Assembly (NCBI RefSeq): GCF_040371085.1
Contig: NZ_JAMBMT010000001.1
Location: 992,001-1,056,000, forward strand
DNA length: 64,000 bases
Direction: 5' to 3'
DNA from: Psychrobacter sp. AH5
Lineage (GTDB): Bacteria > Pseudomonadota > Gammaproteobacteria > Pseudomonadales > Moraxellaceae
Under the pieces are notes generated by a model. It worked only from the letters and a program-made list of their open reading frames with translations. It was not told where the DNA came from and made no database searches. The translations under genes and the position numbers were made by a program. This document shows positions 16,125 to 27,889 of this stretch, in pieces (within the stretch, counting starts at the first letter, position 1; every line of letters begins with the position of its first letter).

Positions 16125-17036
16125 CTAATTTACTATTTGATAACTGACCATAGGCTTTGCACTTGGAATAGTCGCTGCTAATGCAGTGTTATCATCTACC
16201 GCGGCCTCCTTTATAGATAGCGCCATAGTTGGTGCTGTTGTTGACGCCGCCGACGACAAGAGTTGCCCGCGGCAGACATCATCACTTGGATCCAAAGACT
16301 GATATTGTTTGTAGTAGCTGACTGCTAACTGCTGCATAGCCACACTCGCGGCGTCATCGTTGGCATTGACAAAAGCTTCATGTGCTTGCTCAAGCCAGCG
16401 ATCCGCCATGCGAAAGTGAGGACTTGAGCTACGAAAGCCATGCTCGCAATGATCGGCCGCTGCCCAAACTAGGCTTACCTCACTAAAAGCAAGCTCGCGC
16501 GGGGCATTGGCTATAGCGCCACTATCTTTTAGTGCACTAATATTAGCCCATAGATCTGGACGCATCAATGCGGAGGTCTGAGGAATATCAGTAATTAGCG
16601 GTAAGTCGTCTTCGCTATTGCTCTTTAGGGCTTGGAAAATAGCCACAGCGTCATTAAAAGCATAATTACCAGCATCGATTGCGCTATTAATACTGTCTTC
16701 GTGATTGGCATAATTGAGCCAAGCTTGAGCTTTATAAGCAAAATACTGTTGACGCGCGCTCATGGTAGCAAGTTGATAAGGCTTTAGCTGCAGCTGCATA
16801 CAGGCTATTGCACGTTGGCGCGCGCTTTGAGACTTGCTGTAGCGAGATTTTATTTCAAAATAATTGTTGTCACTATCACAGTGATTGACTATGGCGTTAG
16901 GACTGACTATCGAGGTTTCACTGACCGAAATATCAGCTTGAGCCAATGACGGCATTACTAGAGCCAAGGTAAATAACAATGAAGAGGTAATAGTGGAGCA
17001 AGATAAAGCGATGGCGTTATTACGAATAGTAGTCAT
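16125..17036 (-). CDS. Hypothetical exported protein, 303 residues
   Basis: No family recognised. A classical signal peptide ends at about residue 34 (LALVMPSLAQA-D). The mature part is mainly helical (SARQRAIACMQLQLKPYQL, SARQQYFAYKAQAWLNYA) with four Cys that could form two disulfides. The pattern SARQ...A...A resembles TPR-like repeats. It is the last gene of the surface-protein block on the minus strand, 234 bases after the 1776-residue barrel protein, with a strong hairpin in the gap. Location and export suggest a periplasmic helper of that system (inference). Confidence 0.7.
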   Translation of the reverse strand: MTTIRNNAIALSCSTITSSLLFTLALVMPSLAQADISVSETSIVSPNAIVNHCDSDNNYFEIKSRYSKSQSARQRAIACMQLQLKPYQLATMSARQQYFAYKAQAWLNYANHEDSINSAIDAGNYAFNDAVAIFQALKSNSEDDLPLITDIPQTSALMRPDLWANISALKDSGAIANAPRELAFSEVSLVWAAADHCEHGFRSSSPHFRMADRWLEQAHEAFVNANDDAASVAMQQLAVSYYKQYQSLDPSDDVCRGQLLSSAASTTAPTMALSIKEAAVDDNTALAATIPSAKPMVSYQIVN

Positions 17037-17166
17037 AGAGCAGACCTTATACTTATAGTAAGGTAGAATTGGTTATAAATTAGATTAGGCTATCGAGTTA
17101 ACAAGATTATTGAAACTTAGTTCAAATAGTTTAATTAGGTTAAATAGATAGCCCGGCTCTATAAAT

Positions 17167-17199
17167 GACAGTATCGTAAGGTTGACTTAGGATACTGTC
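17167..17199 (-). repeat. Strong inverted repeat after the barrel-protein gene
   Basis: GACAGTATC and GATACTGTC form a perfect nine-pair stem. After a G-G mismatch, TAAG/CTTA extends it by four pairs around a GTTGA loop. No T-run follows on either strand, so it is not a classical intrinsic terminator. It may protect the upstream mRNA 3' end or attenuate expression of the 303-residue gene. Confidence 0.75.
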
Positions 17200-17270
17200 T
17201 CATTAAAAACAGCTGCTTTTATAGCATAGTCTATTAATTGATGACTAGGATAGCTAAGCTGGTAGCCGAA

Positions 17271-20200
17271 TTAAAAATTAGAGTTATCATTTAAACGTGG
17301 GTTCTTGCTCGCATCTTTAGCTTTAAATAAGTCTTCGTCAAACTTAAAGCGTAATCTAAAATACGCGCCTTGTTGGGTAGTATCTTCATAAGCGATATCA
17401 TCGTCTTCAAAGCCCATAAAGTTATAGCCAAGTGATAACCAAAGATTGGTCATTGGGCTATAGCCGACCTCAGCACCTAGCATATACGACATATCATCAG
17501 CTTGCTTATTCCAATAAGTACCAGCTTGTAATCCTACATCCCAGCGCTCACTGATATCATAAAGACCACGGCCATACAGCGCATGAGCAGTGTTATCGCT
17601 GCTGATATTATCGGCGTCAAACTGGGTATGTTTGCCAGCATAGCGACCTGATAAAGTTAAGGGGCGTGTGGGGTGATAGTTACCACTCAATGACCAGACA
17701 ACAGTATCTTTTTGATAAGCATCATCGCCAGTATTATTATCGTCTAGACGGTATTCAAGCTTAGCTAAAGCGTCTAGCTGATTACTATCATAGTCGCGGA
17801 AAGCTGCGCCTAATTGAAAGCGGTTAATAGTACGATCGCCATCCGTATAGTCAACACGCGAGTAGATGTCTTTGGCGAGTAAAGTCACCTCATCGGTGTA
17901 GCGATAAGCAATACCTGCGCTACCGAGCAAGGTATCGCTCGTTTCGCCCCAACGCTTCTCAAAACGTCCAGAAGCTTTATAGTCTTCTTTTGCTAAATAT
18001 TCAACACCAATGCCAGCGGCGGTCGCGGTGTTCTCGGTGTCGCCCTCTAAAGACTCTACGCGCTCAAATAAGGTGTTAATCGTTAGGCCTTGCTGTACAT
18101 ACCATTTGTTTTTTAGACCGATAGCGGCTTCTGCTTCACGTGCGCTAATAGCATCACGCATACGGTATTCGCTATAGACTTTGCCATCTTTCATGTAGTT
18201 GGCATCAAAACCAACGACAGTACGTTGACGCTCTTCGGTATCATCCAAGCCATAGCTGCCAGAGAGACTGTTAATTAAGTCATGGCGAGCATAAAGACGA
18301 CCTAGACCACCTAGCGGCGTCTCGCCACCGATAGAGGTGGCATTACGTTCACTGTTATCGATATCTTGCTCGTATTCTGCAAACACTAGCGAGTTATTAA
18401 GCTTTGGCAAACGCGCAGTAATACGGGCGCGAGCAGTGGTGCCTTCAATGTCTTTATCAGCATTATTGACGCCGCTAAGTGCCGATTGATTGATAATATC
18501 ATCATTAAAGATTGTATCATCAGTGACATCGACGACGTCTGTAGCCTCTTGAATACTGCGTGAGGCGGCTGTCGCATCTTGCTTATAATAACGTACCCCA
18601 ATCTCACCGACGATGTTAGTACTTAGACGCTGCTCGATACTAGCAAGTACCCCTTGTCGGCTGGCTTCGGTCGTTAAGTCCTTAGTGCGAACGCCTTCTA
18701 ATTTTAGCGCAGTCTTCTTATCATTGATTAAGTGCGCAACTTCAAACCCAGACTCTTGACGGCCAGCCGTTTGCGGAGAGGCGCCAGTGACAAAGCCCTC
18801 ATCAGTATCATTATAATAAGCTTTGGCACGGGTGTTTTTCTTATCATCATAATCAAGCTCTACGCGTAGCGCATCACCATCCGCGTCATTACCCTGTAAC
18901 TTAGTAGTATTGATCTGATTACTAGGCTCAAAGTTAGGATTCTCCGCTTTATTCATCGCGTACTCAGCGACTAGCTTTAGCTTGTCATTCATTTTAATGA
19001 CGGTATTGACACTAGCAAGCTGTTCTTTATTTAGTGGATCATCGCTATTGATGTAGCTACCGCCAACAGCTACTTTTTTGTTGAGTTGCTGCTTGAGCGC
19101 AACGCCGCCCACCCAGTATTTCTCGCCACCTTCATCGACTTCTACGGTGACGCGTAAGTAGATAGGATTGCCATTGATATCTTGGCTAGCGATAGGCGAC
19201 TTTAAAAATAAGCTGCGGCTAATAGGGTCAATTTCATAATCAGCAAAGCGGGTCAGTATCTCGCGGCTGATGATAAGTCCTGGATTATTGACATCACGAG
19301 TGATCACCTCGATCGTTTCAGAGTTCTCTAAAACCGCATCAAAATTCTCAGCTAATGGGTAAGGGCCTGAGATACCCAAACCGCGAGTCTCATTGACGCG
19401 CTGGCTAGTGCTAGTCTCAGCGGCAAAGGCGGTCACGCGCGTATCTTCATCTTCATACTGCGCTTTTACGCCAGTCAAAGTACGGTTATATTGGCCAAGC
19501 TTAATGCCTTCGTCATTATCTATTTGAGTCTTTAGATCGCCGTACATAGCAAATGAGCGACCTTTATCAACGCGTACATAGAGCTTGCTAGTCGACTGCG
19601 CATCAAAGCCCTTAGCTGAGCTATCACCATAGACCGGATAATACTCGCCAGGCTCTATATCACGAAACAGACGCTCGCCTTTTTTGTCACTATCATAAGA
19701 TAGCGTCAATAGATAATCACCGCGTACTTTGCCTTTTAGGAACATAGCGGCGCGGCCAGAGGCGGCGTAGTCATCGTTACCTGCGTACTCATGCAGCTCT
19801 TGCTCAAAGGCGCCTTGAGCGTCAGTGATCTGGCTACCATCAAAGTCTTTGAGTGAAATAGCGCCCTCAACGATACCAACCGCGATAAGCGGACGTAGAT
19901 TTGCGGTAAATTGCAGTGGAATGACTTGTTTGCTACTACCAGTGTCGATGATCAGCTCACCTTTGCCCGGTACACTTGGCGCTGTCACCGGAATGAGTAG
20001 TTCACCGCCAGAGACAGTAACCTGCGTGCCTACTTTATCTTTACTGCTATCTTTTAAATTGATCCGGCCAATGTTGGTATCGATAGTGATAGGAGTTGAG
20101 GCGATATAAGGACTACCGTCGCGATTCTTTAGGCTGATAACCACTTGATATTCGCTGACGCCATCGGCGGGAACGAGCTGATCTTGAGTACGGTAATCGA

Positions 20201-22601
20201 TAGCTTGCAAGCTATCCGGTGTCATCACTTTAATGGTTTGCTCAGAGATAACTTTACCATTGACGTCAGTGGCTACGCCGCGCAAAGTATTACTGCCGCG
20301 CTTTAGATCAACCGCGTAGTAATCAAAGGCGGTTACACTTTGTTTTTCTTGCTCAGCGGTTTTACCGATTTGCTGCTCTGATACCGCTTTGCCATTGGCA
20401 TACAGGGTGAAAGTAGAGCCTAGCGGCGCTTGCACTTGTACCATTTGTTTATAAGTACTAAGCTGCTGCCCTTCATTTAAGTTAATAAAGGCCACCTCAT
20501 TAGTAGCGACTTCTTTTAGGTACTCTTCTAATACTTTGGGCTGCGGCTGCGCAACTTTAGTCACTGCCATATCGACGCGATTGCTAGCAGAACTAACCAT
20601 ATTATTGACGATAGCCGAGTCACACTGGATACCTTGATCTAGCGCATCATTAGACTTACAGCCGCTAGCATCAACATTATCTTTATAATCGCGATTATAA
20701 ATAGGCTCTAAATCAAGCTCGCTTTTTATCGCTTGCTCAAGTGCATTATTTTTTGCACTTATTGACTTGCTACGGGCAATCAGCTCAGTATTTAGACGCT
20801 CCGTACTATCACCCATACCGCCGACGATACCGAAGTCAGCACGATGCAGCTCGCCGTATTTTAAGTCCACAAAACGGCTACCAGCGTCGCCTGTATTACG
20901 GTTACTTTGAATTACCAGCTCGGTGGCATTAGGAATGGTAGTGCGATCCACTTTGAGTACATGAGTCTTGGCGCTGATGCCATAAAAGTTATACTTACCT
21001 TCAGGATCGGTGACCACGAAGTTACCGTTTTCCATATAGATACGCACGCCAGCGACCCCAAGCTCGCCTTCTTCTTTTTGTTGGATGCCATCACGGTTGA
21101 TGTCGTGATAGACCTTGCCAACGATGATGCCATCGGTATTCATCACGCCGCGCTCGACATCGATCTGCCACTGCGCTTCTCTAGAGGTAAATAGTCTTTT
21201 ATTTTCATTACTACCTTGCGCTATAGCACGGTTAATACCATCGCCACCCAAGGCAGAGGCACCAATTAATACTCGATAAGTAATGTCTTTGCTTTCACCT
21301 ATATCTAAAGTACCTAAATTTAGAACTTGATACTTACCTTCAGTTTTGAATTCTGTAGTTTGTGCTTGAGCGATAGCTATATCACTACTATTTTGGTCTT
21401 TAATAATACGTACACTGTTTGAAACAATATCAAAACCACGTGGTAGCGCGTCTTTTAGTTGAACGTCATAAGCTATAGCTTTACCATCATTTTTTACATT
21501 GATGGTATAACTAACATAATCACCAAGTTCAGCGCTTTTAACTTCACTCTCTTTAATAACTTTTAATTTTGGCGTTTCATCAATAATGCTGATGGTATTA
21601 CTGATATCTTCATCAACGGGGGTAAGGTCAGTTGTCTTAGGCAATTCATCAGCGCTGAGACCTACCGAAGGTGCGATACAGGCTTCAAGTTTGGCAGTTA
21701 AAGTATCTCCATCTAGTGTCTGAATAATGTCATCAACTATAGCATTGGAGTTGACAGCAGTAGGCGCTTGCAGACGGTATTTACCAGTGTTGACACCAGT
21801 TTCAATGGCCTTTAGAGAATATGTGTCGCTTGTTTTTGGTGAAGAAATAGTGACCCAAACCTGATCTTTCTTATCATCTTGTAAATTACACGCTGCATAA
21901 CCTACTTGAACGAAGATGTCTTCTTCTACTTGAGTTTTAGTTTTAAATTCATTAAAAGTTTCATCCATAAAATCAATACGAGGCGCTACCACTATGACAC
22001 TATCGGTAGCTAAAGCAGCGCTAACAGAAGGATCTTCTATTATGGTAGCGCCAAGTTTGATATTAGCAGTGTCGCCATCTTGAGCTTCTTTACTGACTAG
22101 AGCTTGTACGATAAATTGAATACTTTCAGCTTGTTGAAGTTTTATCTGAGCACTAAGATTATTGAGAATAAGTTCTCGATCAGCTTCATCAATGATGCCA
22201 TTATTATTAAGATCTTGATAGATTCTTAGATTGGATAGCATTGCTTCAGGAGCCAAACGTAAGCTTACAGTTGCCTCATCCGTACTAGTGTTTTTTAGGA
22301 CATTTATCCAACTCGCTACTGTACCTGGCGCTACTGTCTTTGGCATGGCTTGCGATAAGCTAAGACCATAAATGATAGGTGTTGATGACACAAGTTGCAC
22401 AGTGTTTGAGCTAGCATTAATGACAATATCATCTTTATTATCGAGGCTGTAGCTCACTTGTGCGGTATTCTGGATATTATTCACAACAGGAGCTGCCAAC
22501 GCCATATTTGATTGCATAAGCAACATTGCAGCCGTCAGCGCTGAGATCTTCGCTGTACTATGCATGTTGTGTTTAGACGTATTGAGTACATGTGATGTCA
22601 T
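17271..22601 (-). CDS. Giant outer-membrane protein: DUF11, SdrD_B-like and beta-barrel parts
   Basis: Large surface protein of 1776 residues from the ATG at 22601; a TTG six codons upstream is less likely. Signal peptide to about residue 37 (SNMALAAP). Then a beta module, with a Ca-binding-like loop (DLNNNGIIDEAD) near residue 130. A DUF11 domain spans about 345-470 (SAELGDYVSYTINVKNDG, LKDALPRGFDIV) and an SdrD_B/Cna-B-like domain about 485-595 (VGKVYHDINRDGIQQKEEG). Further Ig-like modules run to about 900 (VPADGVSEYQVVISLKNRDG). The last about 860 residues alternate short amphipathic strands and turns, as in a large outer-membrane barrel, and the protein ends in Phe. Probably a barrel-anchored surface protein; its partner or substrate is unknown. 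The gene lies 170 bases downstream of the 708-residue gene, with two hairpins between. Confidence 0.82.
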   Translation of the reverse strand: MTSHVLNTSKHNMHSTAKISALTAAMLLMQSNMALAAPVVNNIQNTAQVSYSLDNKDDIVINASSNTVQLVSSTPIIYGLSLSQAMPKTVAPGTVASWINVLKNTSTDEATVSLRLAPEAMLSNLRIYQDLNNNGIIDEADRELILNNLSAQIKLQQAESIQFIVQALVSKEAQDGDTANIKLGATIIEDPSVSAALATDSVIVVAPRIDFMDETFNEFKTKTQVEEDIFVQVGYAACNLQDDKKDQVWVTISSPKTSDTYSLKAIETGVNTGKYRLQAPTAVNSNAIVDDIIQTLDGDTLTAKLEACIAPSVGLSADELPKTTDLTPVDEDISNTISIIDETPKLKVIKESEVKSAELGDYVSYTINVKNDGKAIAYDVQLKDALPRGFDIVSNSVRIIKDQNSSDIAIAQAQTTEFKTEGKYQVLNLGTLDIGESKDITYRVLIGASALGGDGINRAIAQGSNENKRLFTSREAQWQIDVERGVMNTDGIIVGKVYHDINRDGIQQKEEGELGVAGVRIYMENGNFVVTDPEGKYNFYGISAKTHVLKVDRTTIPNATELVIQSNRNTGDAGSRFVDLKYGELHRADFGIVGGMGDSTERLNTELIARSKSISAKNNALEQAIKSELDLEPIYNRDYKDNVDASGCKSNDALDQGIQCDSAIVNNMVSSASNRVDMAVTKVAQPQPKVLEEYLKEVATNEVAFINLNEGQQLSTYKQMVQVQAPLGSTFTLYANGKAVSEQQIGKTAEQEKQSVTAFDYYAVDLKRGSNTLRGVATDVNGKVISEQTIKVMTPDSLQAIDYRTQDQLVPADGVSEYQVVISLKNRDGSPYIASTPITIDTNIGRINLKDSSKDKVGTQVTVSGGELLIPVTAPSVPGKGELIIDTGSSKQVIPLQFTANLRPLIAVGIVEGAISLKDFDGSQITDAQGAFEQELHEYAGNDDYAASGRAAMFLKGKVRGDYLLTLSYDSDKKGERLFRDIEPGEYYPVYGDSSAKGFDAQSTSKLYVRVDKGRSFAMYGDLKTQIDNDEGIKLGQYNRTLTGVKAQYEDEDTRVTAFAAETSTSQRVNETRGLGISGPYPLAENFDAVLENSETIEVITRDVNNPGLIISREILTRFADYEIDPISRSLFLKSPIASQDINGNPIYLRVTVEVDEGGEKYWVGGVALKQQLNKKVAVGGSYINSDDPLNKEQLASVNTVIKMNDKLKLVAEYAMNKAENPNFEPSNQINTTKLQGNDADGDALRVELDYDDKKNTRAKAYYNDTDEGFVTGASPQTAGRQESGFEVAHLINDKKTALKLEGVRTKDLTTEASRQGVLASIEQRLSTNIVGEIGVRYYKQDATAASRSIQEATDVVDVTDDTIFNDDIINQSALSGVNNADKDIEGTTARARITARLPKLNNSLVFAEYEQDIDNSERNATSIGGETPLGGLGRLYARHDLINSLSGSYGLDDTEERQRTVVGFDANYMKDGKVYSEYRMRDAISAREAEAAIGLKNKWYVQQGLTINTLFERVESLEGDTENTATAAGIGVEYLAKEDYKASGRFEKRWGETSDTLLGSAGIAYRYTDEVTLLAKDIYSRVDYTDGDRTINRFQLGAAFRDYDSNQLDALAKLEYRLDDNNTGDDAYQKDTVVWSLSGNYHPTRPLTLSGRYAGKHTQFDADNISSDNTAHALYGRGLYDISERWDVGLQAGTYWNKQADDMSYMLGAEVGYSPMTNLWLSLGYNFMGFEDDDIAYEDTTQQGAYFRLRFKFDEDLFKAKDASKNPRLNDNSNF

Positions 22602-22646
22602 AATAAGTCGCTTATCCAATAAAACATAAAGGGGAGGGTGGTAATG

Positions 22647-22687
22647 CTCTAGCTTAGCTAATTAAATTCAATCAACTCAAGCTAGAG
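22647..22687 (-). repeat. Inverted repeat between two surface-protein genes
   Basis: CTCTAGCTT and AAGCTAGAG are perfect nine-base complements separated by 23 bases. Lies in the 170-base gap after the 708-residue gene. There is no U-tract, so an RNA stability or processing element is more likely than a terminator. Confidence 0.6.
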
Positions 22688-22695
22688 GGTTTATC

Positions 22696-22719
22696 TATAA
22701 GCGTCTATTGAAGCTTATA
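22696..22719 (-). repeat. Second inverted repeat in the same gap
   Basis: TATAAGC and GCTTATA pair perfectly over seven bases with a ten-base loop, immediately next to the inverted repeat at 22647-22687. No U-tract follows on either strand. Confidence 0.5.
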
Positions 22720-22771
22720 CTTATAGGTGCTATTTAAATTAAATATTACTGTTTACATTTCTAATTGATAT

Positions 22772-24898
22772 TTAGGGCGTAGGCGGTAATGGTAATCCTC
22801 CAGTTGGCGTTACCGCTCCTGTTTCAGAAATCTTAGTAGAAAAATAAACAGTGCCTGTTTCTGACGCTTTTAGAGCTGGAAAAGTAGCGACAAGTGTTGG
22901 CGATACATAACTTGAAGTAGCAAATGCTGAGCTATTAGAGGTAGTAGAAGTTAAATTACCGTTATATGTAACCTTATTAGTGTCAAATTTATCGGTTATA
23001 ATGACATTTTTCACAGCGTTAGCAGCTTCTTTGAAAGTGCTTTCAGCAGTGATCTTGTAGTAGATACAAGCACCAGGTTTTGCATTCTCATTGCTACCTA
23101 GAACTGTTTTAACATAGCTAAGTGAAGTTGCTGTTACTCCAGTACAAGCAGCAATTGCTTGCTCTTTAGCTAAAATAATGCCTTCCATAGTAGTTTTAGA
23201 CGTGGTTTCATTATTGCTTGTAAGCGTAGGTACAGCGGTTCCCTCAACTGCTGTTTGTGGCAATACCTTGATAGTCATAACTTCATAGGTGCCTATGTCG
23301 CCAGCTACACCATTGACAGAATTACCATTAGTGCTGACTTTTACAAAAATTCTGACGCCTTCATCAACGCTTAAACCATTCAGTGCAGCATCGGTATTTC
23401 CTACAGCGTTATATAAGTCATAAGTTCCAGTAGTACCAGTATTATCAAGCTTAGTGTCCTCTGCGTCAAAAGAACCATTGCCATTTGAGTCGAAATAAAC
23501 GTCTCCAATAGTAATTTTATTATTATCTGTTGTAGGTGAAATGGTGAAAAGGACGTCACCAGCTTTAGTGGCTTCTTTAATATCAGTACCTTTGTTAGTA
23601 ATAACGTAGCTATACACATTGTCATTACTAATTAATGGTACTTCTTTATTAGTGCCTTCGCTGATAGTAATGTTACGAGTTTGGTTGCGGGTAGTGACTG
23701 TTGCATCAGTGTTGTCATCTTTTCCGTCTTTATCTTCAGGTGCATTAGGATCTTCGTAGTTGTTTTCATTAGCTCCACCACCAGAGACCGTATCTGATCT
23801 ATCGATTAGATCAGGGTTGTTAGCGTTCGTATCGTTTAAAGTATCATCTTTGACAATAGCTACGTTAGTTAGCGAACTACCTGAGTCTATAGGAGTAGAA
23901 ATACTGGTATCTTTTTTCGCACGGAAAGTAATAGTAATTGTCTCGCCCTGCTTCAAATTTTGACCAGTGACATTAATTGTATCGTTATTAGTGCCAGAAA
24001 AAGTAGGAGTGACTGCAGTAGAGGCAGTACCAGAGGTAGAACCAGTAACGGTAGAAGTAGGGGTAGTAGTAGTAAGTGCAACCAAGCCTATAGGCAATGT
24101 ATCAATAACATTAAAAGCCTTGGCATCAGCATTACCTTCATTCTTAATAGTGATCGTATAATCGACATAAGCATTATTATTAGCAGTATCGAAAAAATTA
24201 TTATTAAGATTAGTATTAGCAGACTTGGTAATGGCGTAGATAGGCGTTTTAGTGATAGCATTATCTGTGTTAGATGCCTGATAACTAGCAGGAGTGCTAC
24301 CAGTCTTGTCTTTCAAATATTTACTAGAGGCGGTAACAGTAAGAGCAGCGTTTTGTCCGACATTACGTTTGATATTAGAGGTTGAGGTAATAGTGATGGT
24401 TGCCGTTTCTTCTGGCGCTAGTACGATACCGTCTGCAGCGACGTAATTTTTAACCGTTGCAGGATCTTTAGAAGTAGTATAGGTAATGACGTTACTACTA
24501 TAATTGAAGTTATCATTAGTCGCTTGAACAATATCGAGAGTATATTTATCAGTGACGTTACCTTTGTTTTGAAGAGTATGTTCGAACGATACTGACTGAC
24601 CAGCTTGCGGGTTGATTGTTAAGTCTTTGTTCAGATCATCAGTAAGATCATCATCTGCTGAGGTAGCTTCAAAGATAAATGAGCTGGTCTCAGATACAGT
24701 CACTGTGACTTTATTAGAAGTGGCGGTCTGTTCCGTTGTATCAGTACCAACTTTGTAAGTAGCACTAGCTGAGTTATCAATTGTTACTGTTTTGGCTGAT
24801 TTGCCAGAAGGCGCAGCGGCTATAGCGCTAGTAGATAAACCCATCACCGCGGCGACACCGACGGCAAGCAGGCTATAGTTAAAAGTATTTGATTTCAT
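22772..24898 (-). CDS. Secreted DUF11-type surface protein, 708 residues
   Basis: Exported protein with a clear signal peptide ([20 protein letters not shown], cleaved near residue 28). The mature chain is Thr/Asn/Ser/Asp-rich beta structure with almost no Cys. A DUF11 repeat lies at about 215-350 ([30 protein letters not shown]). A Ca-binding-like loop [12 protein letters not shown] is near residue 470. A C-terminal module at about 592-695 ([32 protein letters not shown]) also ends the 693-residue neighbour. The chain finishes in the Pro-rich [13 protein letters not shown] precedes the ATG. The gene lies 75 bases after the 154-residue gene, likely in one transcript. Its function is unknown; a polymeric surface or matrix role is an inference. 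Confidence 0.8.
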
Positions 24899-24973
24899 TT
24901 AGGACTCCAAGGGTGATTAGTAAAGCTCAGGTTAAAGGGTGTATTAAAGAAACTAACGGTAATAACAGCTTAA

Positions 24974-25438
24974 TTAATTTACAGTCGTATTCAGCGCCAC
25001 AGCGGCTGATTTTTGTGCCGGTAATAATCTGATATTCCAGCGTAGGCTACGGTATTCAGAGTAAGGAACTTTGACCATCTTGCCATTGACCTTACGCATT
25101 AGTGGTATATCAGCATAGTTCTTACCATCAGTGCTGGCTTGAGCACTATTGGGTATAGCTTCACCGGTGAAAGTCATGTTGGCAGGAATAGGAAGTACGA
25201 CTTCTAAATCCTTTATGTCTTGGTTGATAGTATTCGAGTAAGTGGCTTTGTACTGTACTACTGTGCCAGTGGGCGCAGTGTTGACTGGTATGTAAGAAAC
25301 CTTGCCTTCGCTATTGGTGACAACCTTATTAGCAGACAGTTGCATCTTTAATGCGTCATCAGCATGAGCAACACCCATTAAGCTAATAGAGGCTGCAGTT
25401 GCTATTAGCACCTTACGCAGTGTGATGATATATTTCAT
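24974..25438 (-). CDS. Small exported DUF11-like protein, 154 residues
   Basis: Signal peptide to about residue 26 (LMGVAHADDA). The rest is essentially one DUF11-like beta-sandwich: VVQYKATYSNTINQDIKDLE and VVLPIPANMTFTGEAI follow the pattern of a conserved-repeat domain (an interaction strand, then a 'potential/degenerate' strand with Pro). The conserved C-terminal tail is SLRWNIRLLPAQKS. AAGGATAACTTT precedes the ATG. It sits between the 693- and 708-residue secreted proteins and is probably a single-domain partner of the DUF11 proteins. No enzymatic motif is visible. Confidence 0.78.
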   Translation of the reverse strand: MKYIITLRKVLIATAASISLMGVAHADDALKMQLSANKVVTNSEGKVSYIPVNTAPTGTVVQYKATYSNTINQDIKDLEVVLPIPANMTFTGEAIPNSAQASTDGKNYADIPLMRKVNGKMVKVPYSEYRSLRWNIRLLPAQKSAAVALNTTVN

Positions 25439-25682
25439 AAAGTTATCCTTGCTTGGTCTATTTTTGATACTATCGTTATATTCTTTAAAACAAATATAAA
25501 TTTAGCCGTTGGTTATGCTTAAAATACCTTTCATTTACTGTTTTTTTTATAAGCAATATTTATGCCAACTTTTTATTAGATAATGATAATTTTGACGAAG
25601 GTAAGACATTTAATTACACAGTGTATTTTTACAGAGATAATACAAACAAGCACTATAAAAGCGATGGACGGTACTTAAAAAT

Positions 25683-25698
25683 AGCTGAACGGTCAGCT
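25683..25698 (-). repeat. Small perfect hairpin
   Basis: AGCTGA-ACGG-TCAGCT, a six-pair stem with a four-base loop and no T-run, about 110 bases after the 693-residue gene's stop. Confidence 0.5.
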
Positions 25699-25742
25699 GA
25701 TTAAACGCGTAAAGCTCCGTCTAATCAATAGCTTGTACTTAC

Positions 25743-25771
25743 TGCTAAGCATCACAAAGTGACGCTTAGCA
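25743..25771 (-). repeat. Strong hairpin downstream of the 693-residue gene
   Basis: TGCTAAGC and GCTTAGCA form a perfect eight-pair stem. Four further pairs (TCAC/GTGA) after one mismatch leave an AAA loop. It lies 37 bases after the stop codon. No U-tract follows, as in the other hairpins of this block. Confidence 0.72.
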
Positions 25772-25807
25772 AAGATAGGATTATGATATTTAGGTATAAT
25801 AGGCTGG

Positions 25808-27889
25808 CTAAGGGTTAGAGCTGTTAGTGATGCCATACTTGGTGTTGAAATACAACGTAGCTTTAGTCGCAGTTGTGCTAGTAGACTTATCTAAATTGAA
25901 CTTGTTAGAGATAATAGTTTCTGTTGGCAAGATGGTATTGTTACTGTAGACAGTGGTAGGTTTCCCTATAGGGAACGGTAGCGCAAAAGTAGACGTAACC
26001 GTTTTACTCTGTAATTTATCGGTAATTTCGATATCTTTTAGATTAACATGGCCTCGGTTATAAGCATCAATCTTATAAGCGATACATTTGCCAGGAGCTA
26101 TGTTTGTAATCGTATCCGTGCTAAAGACAACAGTTTGAGAAGAAGTGCCAGTAGTACCGTCATAGTTGTTATTAATATCACAATCATTAACGTATTGGGA
26201 TTTGATTAACACTAAAGAAGCATAATTTGCTTTTACCTCGCCAAAGTCTAGATTGCGTGAGCCATCAGACTCAGTTTTATAATTGAAGGTACCAGTAACT
26301 AATTCAATCTCACGAATATTGGGCGTGGTATCGATGCTATATTCCCAAAGATCAGGCTCTACTTGAACTAAGCAAATCTTCCTTTTACCATTTAAAGCAC
26401 TGACTGGTACAGTAAATCTATATTGACCTAAAGTAGCTGCTGCAGCTGATACGGCTTTAGCAGTAGTGCCAGTAATATTCGTGCCACCATCAGTAGAGCT
26501 GCAGTCGGTTAAGCGTATTTGTAGCTTACTGTCGGATATGCCTTTTTCACCATCATCAAAAATACCATTAAAATATTTTTGATTACCTGTAAAGGTACTT
26601 GAGATATCAGACTTAGTATTGGTATTTAGGTTACTACTGTTATTCTCAGCGATATTACCATTGTCATTGAAAACAAAACCTGTAAAGGTATAAGGCTTCA
26701 AGCTATTCGTGACTGTACAAGTCCAGCTATCACCATAGGTAAGCTTTAAGTTTTTAGGATCTAGTGGCGTGACTATAGAATTATCAGCTCTTCGACACAC
26801 GTAAGCATCACTATAATTAGCTAAGTTTGTATTTCCCGTGCCTAATTCAGTCAATGTATAAGTTTTGGTAGGATCGACCTTAAAGGTTCCAGTGGTACCT
26901 GTACCATTTGTAATCGTATTACCTGTACCTGTAGTTGTCGTAGTTGTAATGCTGTTAGTTACTACTGAATTATCCGCGTTATCTTTTATCTGCACAGTAA
27001 ATTGGTCAGTATTTGCTCCACGAGAACCTGAAAGCTCCTTTTTGTAAGTCAACCTTGGTTGTGGTTTATAGCAGTAACCATCAAATACAATATTTATAAG
27101 CTGATCACCGGGATTATTAGATTTTCTTTGCCAGTAATAATTTAAATCAGTTTTATTTCCATAAACGACATCTACCCTAGCTACTGGCTCATTAAAAGTT
27201 ACTGAAACTTTGCAATCATTACTCAGGCCACTACAATTAAAATCACCGTTAGTATTTTGTTGTCTATAAGGTGCGCTGTCAGTTATGGTACTACCTTTAG
27301 AGCTTAAAGTAGGGCTAACGGGTGTTCCTAAGCTAGTAAACCCTGTTATATTGACTTCATCGAAGAACTCAAAATAGCGTGGTCTAAATATGTTAGGCTC
27401 TAATGAAACATTAGAATCGATGTCGTATACCGACAAACTTACTTTGTTAAGTTCTTGAGCTTGTCCAGTAAATTCGTTTTTAAAGGTATAAGATACGGTT
27501 CGTGTCGTTTCAGGAGTGGCGAAATCCTGAAAAAACTCAAAATTTTGAATTCTATCCGTCACTGTTGATTTATAAGTATTTTTACCTCCCGAGTCTAATG
27601 ATCCACTTATGCTGAAACTATTAGCAGCAAGAACATAATTTTCGCTGATAATACCGTCTAAAAGTTTATCAGCTCCAGTGGTAGGAGGAGGAGAGTTAGA
27701 CGCTAACTTACCGTAATCTGCGTTAGAAAAATTATCCGATACAAATCCTGCATCGCAAGTCACTGCAGCGAAAACCGAGCTACTACCCAAAGAAAACAGT
27801 AAAATACTTAGTAGAGCTAATGTCTGTTGCCAACATCTACGATACGAATAAATATCAATAACTTTTGAAATTTTTTGAGATTGACGCAT
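25808..27889 (-). CDS. Secreted surface protein with Cna-B/SpaA-like modules, 693 residues
   Basis: Long N-terminal region with a signal peptide (LALLSILLFSLGSSSVFAAV, cleavage near residue 42). The mature protein has an N-terminal beta domain (to about 265). A prealbumin-like or SpaA-like module follows (PRLTYKKELSGSRGANTDQF, GTFKVDPTKTYTLTELGTG). Next is an SdrD_B-like region (TGFVFNDNGNIAENN, FDDGEKGISDSKLQIRL). The C-terminal DUF11-like module (APGKCIAYKIDAYNRG, LKDIEITDKLQ, ATLYFNTK) matches the end of the 708-residue neighbour. Several Cys are present, unlike the 708-residue protein. It is the first gene of the block, next to a 1.06-kb non-coding region that should hold the promoter. 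The function is unknown; adhesion or surface layer is an inference. Confidence 0.78.
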   Translation of the reverse strand: MRQSQKISKVIDIYSYRRCWQQTLALLSILLFSLGSSSVFAAVTCDAGFVSDNFSNADYGKLASNSPPPTTGADKLLDGIISENYVLAANSFSISGSLDSGGKNTYKSTVTDRIQNFEFFQDFATPETTRTVSYTFKNEFTGQAQELNKVSLSVYDIDSNVSLEPNIFRPRYFEFFDEVNITGFTSLGTPVSPTLSSKGSTITDSAPYRQQNTNGDFNCSGLSNDCKVSVTFNEPVARVDVVYGNKTDLNYYWQRKSNNPGDQLINIVFDGYCYKPQPRLTYKKELSGSRGANTDQFTVQIKDNADNSVVTNSITTTTTTGTGNTITNGTGTTGTFKVDPTKTYTLTELGTGNTNLANYSDAYVCRRADNSIVTPLDPKNLKLTYGDSWTCTVTNSLKPYTFTGFVFNDNGNIAENNSSNLNTNTKSDISSTFTGNQKYFNGIFDDGEKGISDSKLQIRLTDCSSTDGGTNITGTTAKAVSAAAATLGQYRFTVPVSALNGKRKICLVQVEPDLWEYSIDTTPNIREIELVTGTFNYKTESDGSRNLDFGEVKANYASLVLIKSQYVNDCDINNNYDGTTGTSSQTVVFSTDTITNIAPGKCIAYKIDAYNRGHVNLKDIEITDKLQSKTVTSTFALPFPIGKPTTVYSNNTILPTETIISNKFNLDKSTSTTATKATLYFNTKYGITNSSNP

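Follow-up and report, generated by a model that had tools for sequence, protein, structure and literature searches.

The window analysed here is a stretch of 64,000 nucleotides from Psychrobacter sp. AH5 (contig NZ_JAMBMT010000001.1, positions 992,001 to 1,056,000 of the forward strand), and our subject is a cluster of five genes in it that we call A, B, C, D and E (Table 1). All five lie on the minus strand and follow one another 5' to 3' in the order A-B-C-D-E. The gaps are 369 bases between A and B, 75 between B and C, 170 between C and D and 234 between D and E; judging from these sizes, A may be a separate transcription unit. On one side the cluster is flanked by the divergent aceE (from 28950, plus strand), on the other by a short plus-strand open reading frame near glnA. 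An earlier note on this DNA had described five co-directional genes for exported proteins, and the positions and lengths that we obtain agree with it, D being 1776 amino acids long when counted from its ATG. An alternative TTG start at 22619 would give D 1782 amino acids, and its residue numbers follow this longer version. Each of the five proteins has a signal-peptide-like N-terminus, as judged by eye. We will suggest that the cluster may build and anchor a surface fibre whose subunits complete each other's domains.

Table 1. Features of the cluster in window positions; roles are proposals discussed in the text
Feature	Positions	Strand	Length	Remarks
Gene A	25808..27889	minus	693 aa	proposed tip adhesin
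Acceptor domain of A (551-693)	25811..26239	minus		Lys563 and Asp624 conserved in 46/46
Gene B	24974..25438	minus	154 aa	signal peptide and single DUF11-like domain
Gene C	22772..24898	minus	708 aa	proposed shaft subunit
Donor strands of C (39-69), with Asn42	24692..24784	minus		pattern and tail models
Acceptor domain of C (570-695)	22814..23191	minus		Lys578, Asp636; ends before the Asn-bearing strand
Gene D	17271..22601	minus	1776 aa (ATG start)	proposed base in the outer membrane
Donor strands of D (48-77, 1782 numbering), with Asn51	22389..22478	minus		pattern and tail models
Complete DUF11 domain of D	21144..21587	minus		Pfam; Lys-Asp-Asn set in one chain
SdrD_B module of D	20820..21119	minus		among the most conserved stretches of D
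Putative outer-membrane barrel of D (905-1782)	17274..19907	minus		hydrophobic alternation
Gene E	16125..17036	minus	303 aa	conserved exported protein

The giant protein, D, had been read as joining a DUF11 to an SdrD_B-like domain, and both pass their Pfam cut-offs: DUF11 (PF01345) at residues 352-469 with 38.1 bits (cut-off 24.6) and SdrD_B (PF17210) at 502-562 with 30.4 bits (cut-off 29.7). The whole protein can be laid out as signal peptide, donor strands (see below), DUF11, SdrD_B, an immunoglobulin-like (Ig-like) stretch recognized by eye and a putative barrel of about 870 residues. Across the two 50-residue bins of the SdrD_B module the mean pairwise identity is 0.94 and 0.87. Protein A consists of a variable head (45-400) that includes SpaA_3 (280-396, 65 bits, cut-off 24), an SdrD_B-like module at about 400-550, delimited by eye from a conserved block, and a C-terminal domain that we call the acceptor. 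In C, the DUF11 at 238-361 falls just below the cut-off in the protein Pfam run (23.8 bits) and above it in the genome search (29.1 bits); it is the only one found by profile, and the other Ig-like domains of C were recognized by eye. No Pfam family exceeds its cut-off in B or E. B is a single DUF11-like domain, matched by hhalign to the DUF11 of D with 97.5% probability. Searches of PDB sequences gave no match for D, for A or for a profile of A, and for a relative of C only matches with an E-value of 0.056 or worse.

The DUF11 domain of D carries Lys356, Asp390 and Asn463, conserved in 123, 128 and 123 of 130 aligned D sequences (a redundant set that includes several genomes twice). In a profile alignment to the 137-position model of this domain the C-termini of both C and B stop at position 100-102, so their C-terminal domains end before the Asn-bearing strand; the C-terminus of A could be aligned over positions 18-52 only. 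What the acceptor domains keep is the other part of the residue set. The Lys is present in 52/52 C, 46/46 A and 56/59 other proteins resembling C or A (C/A-like; among these 59 are two from L113, which duplicates L092), and the Asp in 52/52, 46/46 and 59/59. In B, by eye, the domain also ends before the last strands, the Lys is absent and the Asp mostly absent. B, which is in the same fold family, could be a cap, a chaperone or an adaptor. A has in addition Asn682 (window 25844-25846) in its last strand, invariant in 46/46, where C has mostly Ser, Ala, Lys or Arg. We considered this residue as a bond acceptor; by eye it lies one strand before the usual Asn strand, and extra chemistry in the tip is possible.

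Strands of the missing kind are found at the N-termini of C and D. A two-part donor pattern, describing two strands with the Asn, occurs there in 50/53 C, 54/59 D, 29/51 other D and 36/59 other C/A-like proteins, compared with 0/47 A, 7/55 B, 1/58 E, 1/36 other B, 9/815 background sequences and 16/1062 internal windows. (The totals of 47, 55, 53, 59 and 58 for A, B, C, D and E include the proteins of the window and count L113, which equals L092, twice; one C, that of L089, is partial.) Single-chain versions of the arrangement exist as well. In five relatives of D there are six cases (L143, L144, L173 twice, L174 and L175) of an acceptor-like domain followed directly by the motif I.N.A..Y...SN.V; by eye, each case has Lys, Asp and Asn in the same chain. 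A model made from these six tails scores at least 4 bits at the N-terminus of 52/53 C, 47/59 D, 28/45 other D and 35/57 other C/A-like proteins; the same threshold is reached by 1/47 A, 0/55 B, 2/36 other B, 0/58 E, 1/815 background sequences and 45/1358 internal windows of A, C and D, the last two falling to 0 at 8 bits or more. With a model of 11 tails, chosen without selection for the motif, the counts at 4 bits or more are 42/53 C, 44/59 D, 16/41 other D and 24/57 other C/A-like, against 0/47 A, 0/55 B, 1/58 E, 0/815 background sequences and 50/1358 internal windows (13 of these at 8 bits or more). Finally, when the end of each of 33 non-redundant C proteins is joined to its own start, the score that they reach on the complete-domain model rises on average from 4.0 to 15.3 bits, and the joined ends are the best of all windows in 29/33, an equally high score being reached by 45/1277 windows and 23/660 shuffles; this test partly restates the tail test, since the complete-domain model contains those tails. 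Judged by these alignments and models, A carries an acceptor half, D a donor half and C both.

The distribution of donors among C/A-like proteins was also read at 12 other loci. At seven of them (L096, L100, L101, L106, L108, L179 and L184) there is one C/A-like protein with a donor at 4 bits or more and one without. At L146 two such proteins carry a donor and a third does not, the two proteins of L181 score 5.3 and 3.9 bits, L149 and L178 have no donor at that threshold, and L161 has no C/A-like call.

The reading in the earlier note would have failed if the genes did not stay together as a unit; a survey across relatives finds that they do. A scan of a named genome collection, of a kind that detects close relatives only, gave 60 related loci, all of them in Psychrobacter. 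D is intact in 57; it is broken in L080, L084 and L091, which were left out. Of the loci with intact D, 51 have at least 6 kilobases (kb) upstream, the other six falling short, and gene content in these 51 is A-B-C-D-E in 45, B-D-E in three, and B-C-D, B-C-D-E and D-E in one each. L061, L062, L090 and L093 have D and E without C, and L061 is also without A and B. A further 52 regions were hand-picked among D matches (20, 20 and 12) from other genera, families and classes, although one of them, L112, is Psychrobacter. D is present in 51 of these (L176 has no D match), many of them with B and C as well: B lies upstream in 34, C/A-like genes occur in 40, and E stands as a gene of its own in 21. 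Genes were called from open reading frames with loose profile thresholds.

D-type proteins are spread widely, the counts for family, class and phylum having been obtained with different thresholds and queries and each including the genome of the window. They occur in 117 of 249 Moraxellaceae genomes (E-value at most 1e-10), with 75 of 91 genomes within Psychrobacter (one of them a fragment), and in 40 of 274 genomes of the class (at most 1e-8), while a profile of the second half of D finds 43 of 299 genomes of the phylum (at most 1e-10). Among the matches listed (the best 120 of 676 and the best 120 of 239) relatives carry names that include Psychrobacter, Sphingomonas, Sphingopyxis, Cereibacter and Desulfuromonadales. 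L087 has a second, partial copy of D upstream of the cluster (L087:24-3905), and in G116 two matches to D lie about 11 kb from each other.

While the cluster stays together, two of its genes vary far more than the others. Among Psychrobacter the median pairwise identity falls from 77% (D) through 68% (B) and 48% (E) to 27% (C) and 23% (A). Where two loci share at least 90% identity in D, their C proteins are less than 50% identical in 44/67 pairs and their A proteins in 45/57; for B and E this happens in 0/68 each. L075 and L079, for example, share D at 99.3% and B and E at 100%, with A at 71% and C at 24%. The two genes switch independently of one another: A is 96% and C 25% identical between L054 and L079, A 24% and C 98% between L060 and L073. 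In three pairs, selected for showing the effect, DNA identity is about 95-100% as far as the borders of C or A, where it drops to roughly 20-70%; it then recovers at once. Replacement can also be confined to part of a gene. A is modular, with its variable head followed by better conserved SdrD_B-like and C-terminal parts, and its length ranges from 532 to 1077 amino acids; between L052 and L085 only the N-terminal part of A is replaced, the last 0.9 kb or so being 98-100% identical. On these comparisons A and C are exchanged allelic cassettes.

We also considered whether the N-terminal region of D varies together with the C alleles. This is not supported in general (rank correlations with C identity of 0.30 for D residues 45-345, 0.20 for 346-620 and 0.26 for the barrel part). 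Compared with L055, the D of the window (17271-22619) is 49-66% identical over residues 1-500, in 100-residue bins, and 91-100% over 501-1782; this step at about residue 500 places a recombination border near the junction of DUF11 and SdrD_B.

The number of subunit genes is not fixed. L046, L069, L074 and L081 have additional C/A-like genes between A and B (joined in L081 by a second B-like gene), which shows that several subunit genes can be present in one cluster, and L047 has a second A-like gene. In L106 (12839-18505) and L108 (12223-18300) giant proteins of 1888 and 2025 amino acids with DUF11 repeats are encoded after E; their C-terminal end is the same early-ending acceptor domain, and they are possible alternative tips.

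The C-terminal half of D is a putative outer-membrane barrel. Its hydrophobic alternation in residues 905-1782 is 7.1 standard deviations above shuffles, although residues 700-905, which we take as Ig-like, also score 3.7 standard deviations above theirs. Barrel-type Pfam matches in D and in one relative (L109) are below cut-off. The terminal Phe pointed out in the earlier note holds for the allele of the window and not as a rule: across 15 D C-termini (the window and 14 loci) the last residue is Phe in five, Leu in nine and Asn in one. A barrel anchor that displays DUF11 domains on itself seems less likely. OmpA domains are periplasmic in known proteins, where they bind peptidoglycan. In two relatives of D from other lineages, L109 and L148, both tested with Pfam, an OmpA domain follows the SdrD_B-type module and precedes the barrel region, so that the DUF11/SdrD_B region at the N-terminus of D probably faces the periplasm. 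OmpA domains recur in E. Relatives of E in several other genera carry an extra C-terminal one; of four from other genera that were tested with Pfam, L096, L097 and L108 have it and L094 has none. Among 57 Psychrobacter E proteins, that of the window included, it is retained only in L066.

The following scheme could account for these features. All five proteins would be exported across the inner membrane. A and C would end in an Ig-like domain of the CLIPPER/DUF11 type without its last two strands, C and D would begin with such strands, and the free N-terminal strands of one protein would complete the C-terminal domain of the next. As A has an acceptor only, C both halves and D a donor only, A would be the tip, C, repeated, the shaft and D the base. 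D would be held in the outer membrane by its barrel, which is the sole candidate encoded in the cluster for the exit of A and C. Outside Psychrobacter, several lineages may add a tether to peptidoglycan through an OmpA domain, carried by D or by E. Each joint is probably sealed by an isopeptide bond that forms spontaneously between the Lys of one chain and the Asn of another, since the acceptor retains the bond-forming Lys together with the catalytic Asp and the donor supplies the Asn. A and C would be exposed at the surface, and their exchange among strains is probably driven by phages, grazers or changing surfaces. We put the probability of such a surface fibre, built and anchored by the cluster, with A, C and D as tip, shaft and base joined by strand donation, at about one half. 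The fuller version is more tentative and we give it less than even confidence: natural ligation of split CLIPPER domains would let a widespread Gram-negative fibre assemble itself, covalently and head to tail, without sortase or chaperone-usher; it would grow from the barrel protein, which itself forms the first joint, and its tip and shaft alleles would be freely swapped.

Several observations speak against the fibre. A sequence analogue of an incomplete Ig domain with an N-terminal donor extension is present, and the first version of the test for it was negative: a tail model from the DUF11 of D itself found 0/53 C and 0/59 D N-termini at 5 bits or more, and joined ends scored against the D DUF11 model were no better than controls (676/2312 windows and 142/560 shuffles were as high). 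An after-the-fact interpretation is that the DUF11 of D belongs to a different branch of the fold. The six tails of the later model were picked after inspection, from among the candidates listed; the 11-tail model is weaker outside the genus, includes some ordinary DUF11 tails and used a filter that dropped L144. At 4 bits or more no donor was found in 1/53 C and 12/59 D of Psychrobacter, nor in 17/50 other D and 22/57 other C/A-like proteins, some of the latter being presumably tips. C, the proposed shaft, is absent in 4/51 loci (three B-D-E, one D-E). The pairs showing allele exchange overlap and are not independent, seven near-identical loci supplying about a third of them, and the OmpA-based argument on topology rests on two relatives and not on the D of the window.

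In a rival reading the cluster encodes secreted adhesins that form only a loose set. Common descent alone would then explain the DUF11-type domains of A, B, C and D, while D would act on its own in the outer membrane as adhesin or porin, and the ends that the proteins share would be family features with no joining role. DUF11 domains are indeed widespread as adhesin stalks, according to the source consulted (PMC12617251), the first complementarity tests were negative, and a detectable donor is missing in part of the relatives. We nevertheless regard this as rather unlikely. Loose adhesins would hardly lead one to expect the conserved gene order, the near-invariant Lys and Asp in a domain that ends before the Asn strand, or Asn-bearing start strands in exactly two partners, specific when set against background. 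Slightly less probable to us is a C that closes on itself, its N-terminal strands completing its own C-terminal domain, to give a covalently closed monomer that is displayed or forms a layer and no head-to-tail fibre. Both halves do occur in one C chain and match each other by profile score, but A has an acceptor without a donor (pattern 0/47) and D a donor without such a C-terminus, and these open ends need partners in other chains. That C is a surface-layer (S-layer) protein anchored by D is improbable: the data are compatible with it, C being multi-domain, exported and encoded next to a putative outer-membrane protein, but there is no S-layer domain among the Pfam matches of the five proteins, and the literature on Acinetobacter/DUF11 or Psychrobacter S-layers, by title and abstract opening among the matches listed, describes no such system.

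The suggestion of a Gram-negative surface system of the adhesin type, made in the earlier note, is supported at the level of sequence; the exchange of A and C alleles, the split-domain logic and the place of B in the same fold family go beyond it. If correct, the fibre would be an unrecognized assembly system reaching from Psychrobacter to many other Pseudomonadota, its joints a natural covalent protein ligation pair, and the retention of catalytic residues in DUF11 domains that end early would be explained. Because A and C vary independently while the rest is constant, they could serve as a typing marker and would be a likely target of phages or grazers.

By titles and abstract openings among the matches listed, no description of this cluster was found, and several known systems can be compared with the proposed fibre, CLIPPER adhesins and archaeal threads being the nearest. 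In the crystallized CLIPPER domain a Lys-Asn bond is formed, with a nearby Asp presumably catalysing it (PMC12617251). The CLIPPER/DUF11 fibrillar adhesin B9T28_05395 of Acinetobacter silvestris shares this chemistry, is a Gram-negative surface protein and has an OmpA-like anchor; as described there, it is one long chain with an intramolecular bond (PMC12617251), whereas here the domain would be split between proteins and the anchor would be a separate putative barrel protein. Autocatalytic isopeptide bonds between chains, likewise enzyme-free, are cited in the same source for phage capsids and an alpha-helical hairpin, in other folds and other assemblies (PMC12617251). A spore-fibre anchor with DUF11 domains has been described too (PMC11952670). 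The archaeal threads of Sulfolobus acidocaldarius, made of Saci_0406, come close in another respect: their subunits are joined by donor strand complementation, with intermolecular isopeptide bonds proposed by the authors (PMC9715654). The proposed bond is non-canonical, from the N-terminal amino group of Asp24 to Asn57 two subunits away, and as far as that description goes the subunit has no Pfam domain and there is neither an outer membrane nor a D-like base (PMC9715654). In chaperone-usher pili, as outlined in the same paper, an incomplete Ig-like domain is filled by the N-terminal extension of the next subunit, and there is an outer-membrane channel (PMC9715654). Here no usher or PapD-type chaperone family is matched by the five proteins in Pfam at an E-value of at most 1 (the search covered these five and not the remaining genome), two strands are missing together with a residue of the isopeptide set, and the base protein itself would donate. 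An LPXTG-type C-terminus is not seen by eye in A, B and C of the window nor in the aligned C-termini listed; no search was made for a sortase gene. As far as these features go, the cluster is neither a chaperone-usher nor a sortase system. A further parallel is with split Cna domains of the SpyTag/SpyCatcher type, in which one part has the Lys and a catalytic residue, the other the acceptor residue, and the bond forms spontaneously. Those pairs were engineered from a single domain, whereas here the split would be natural.

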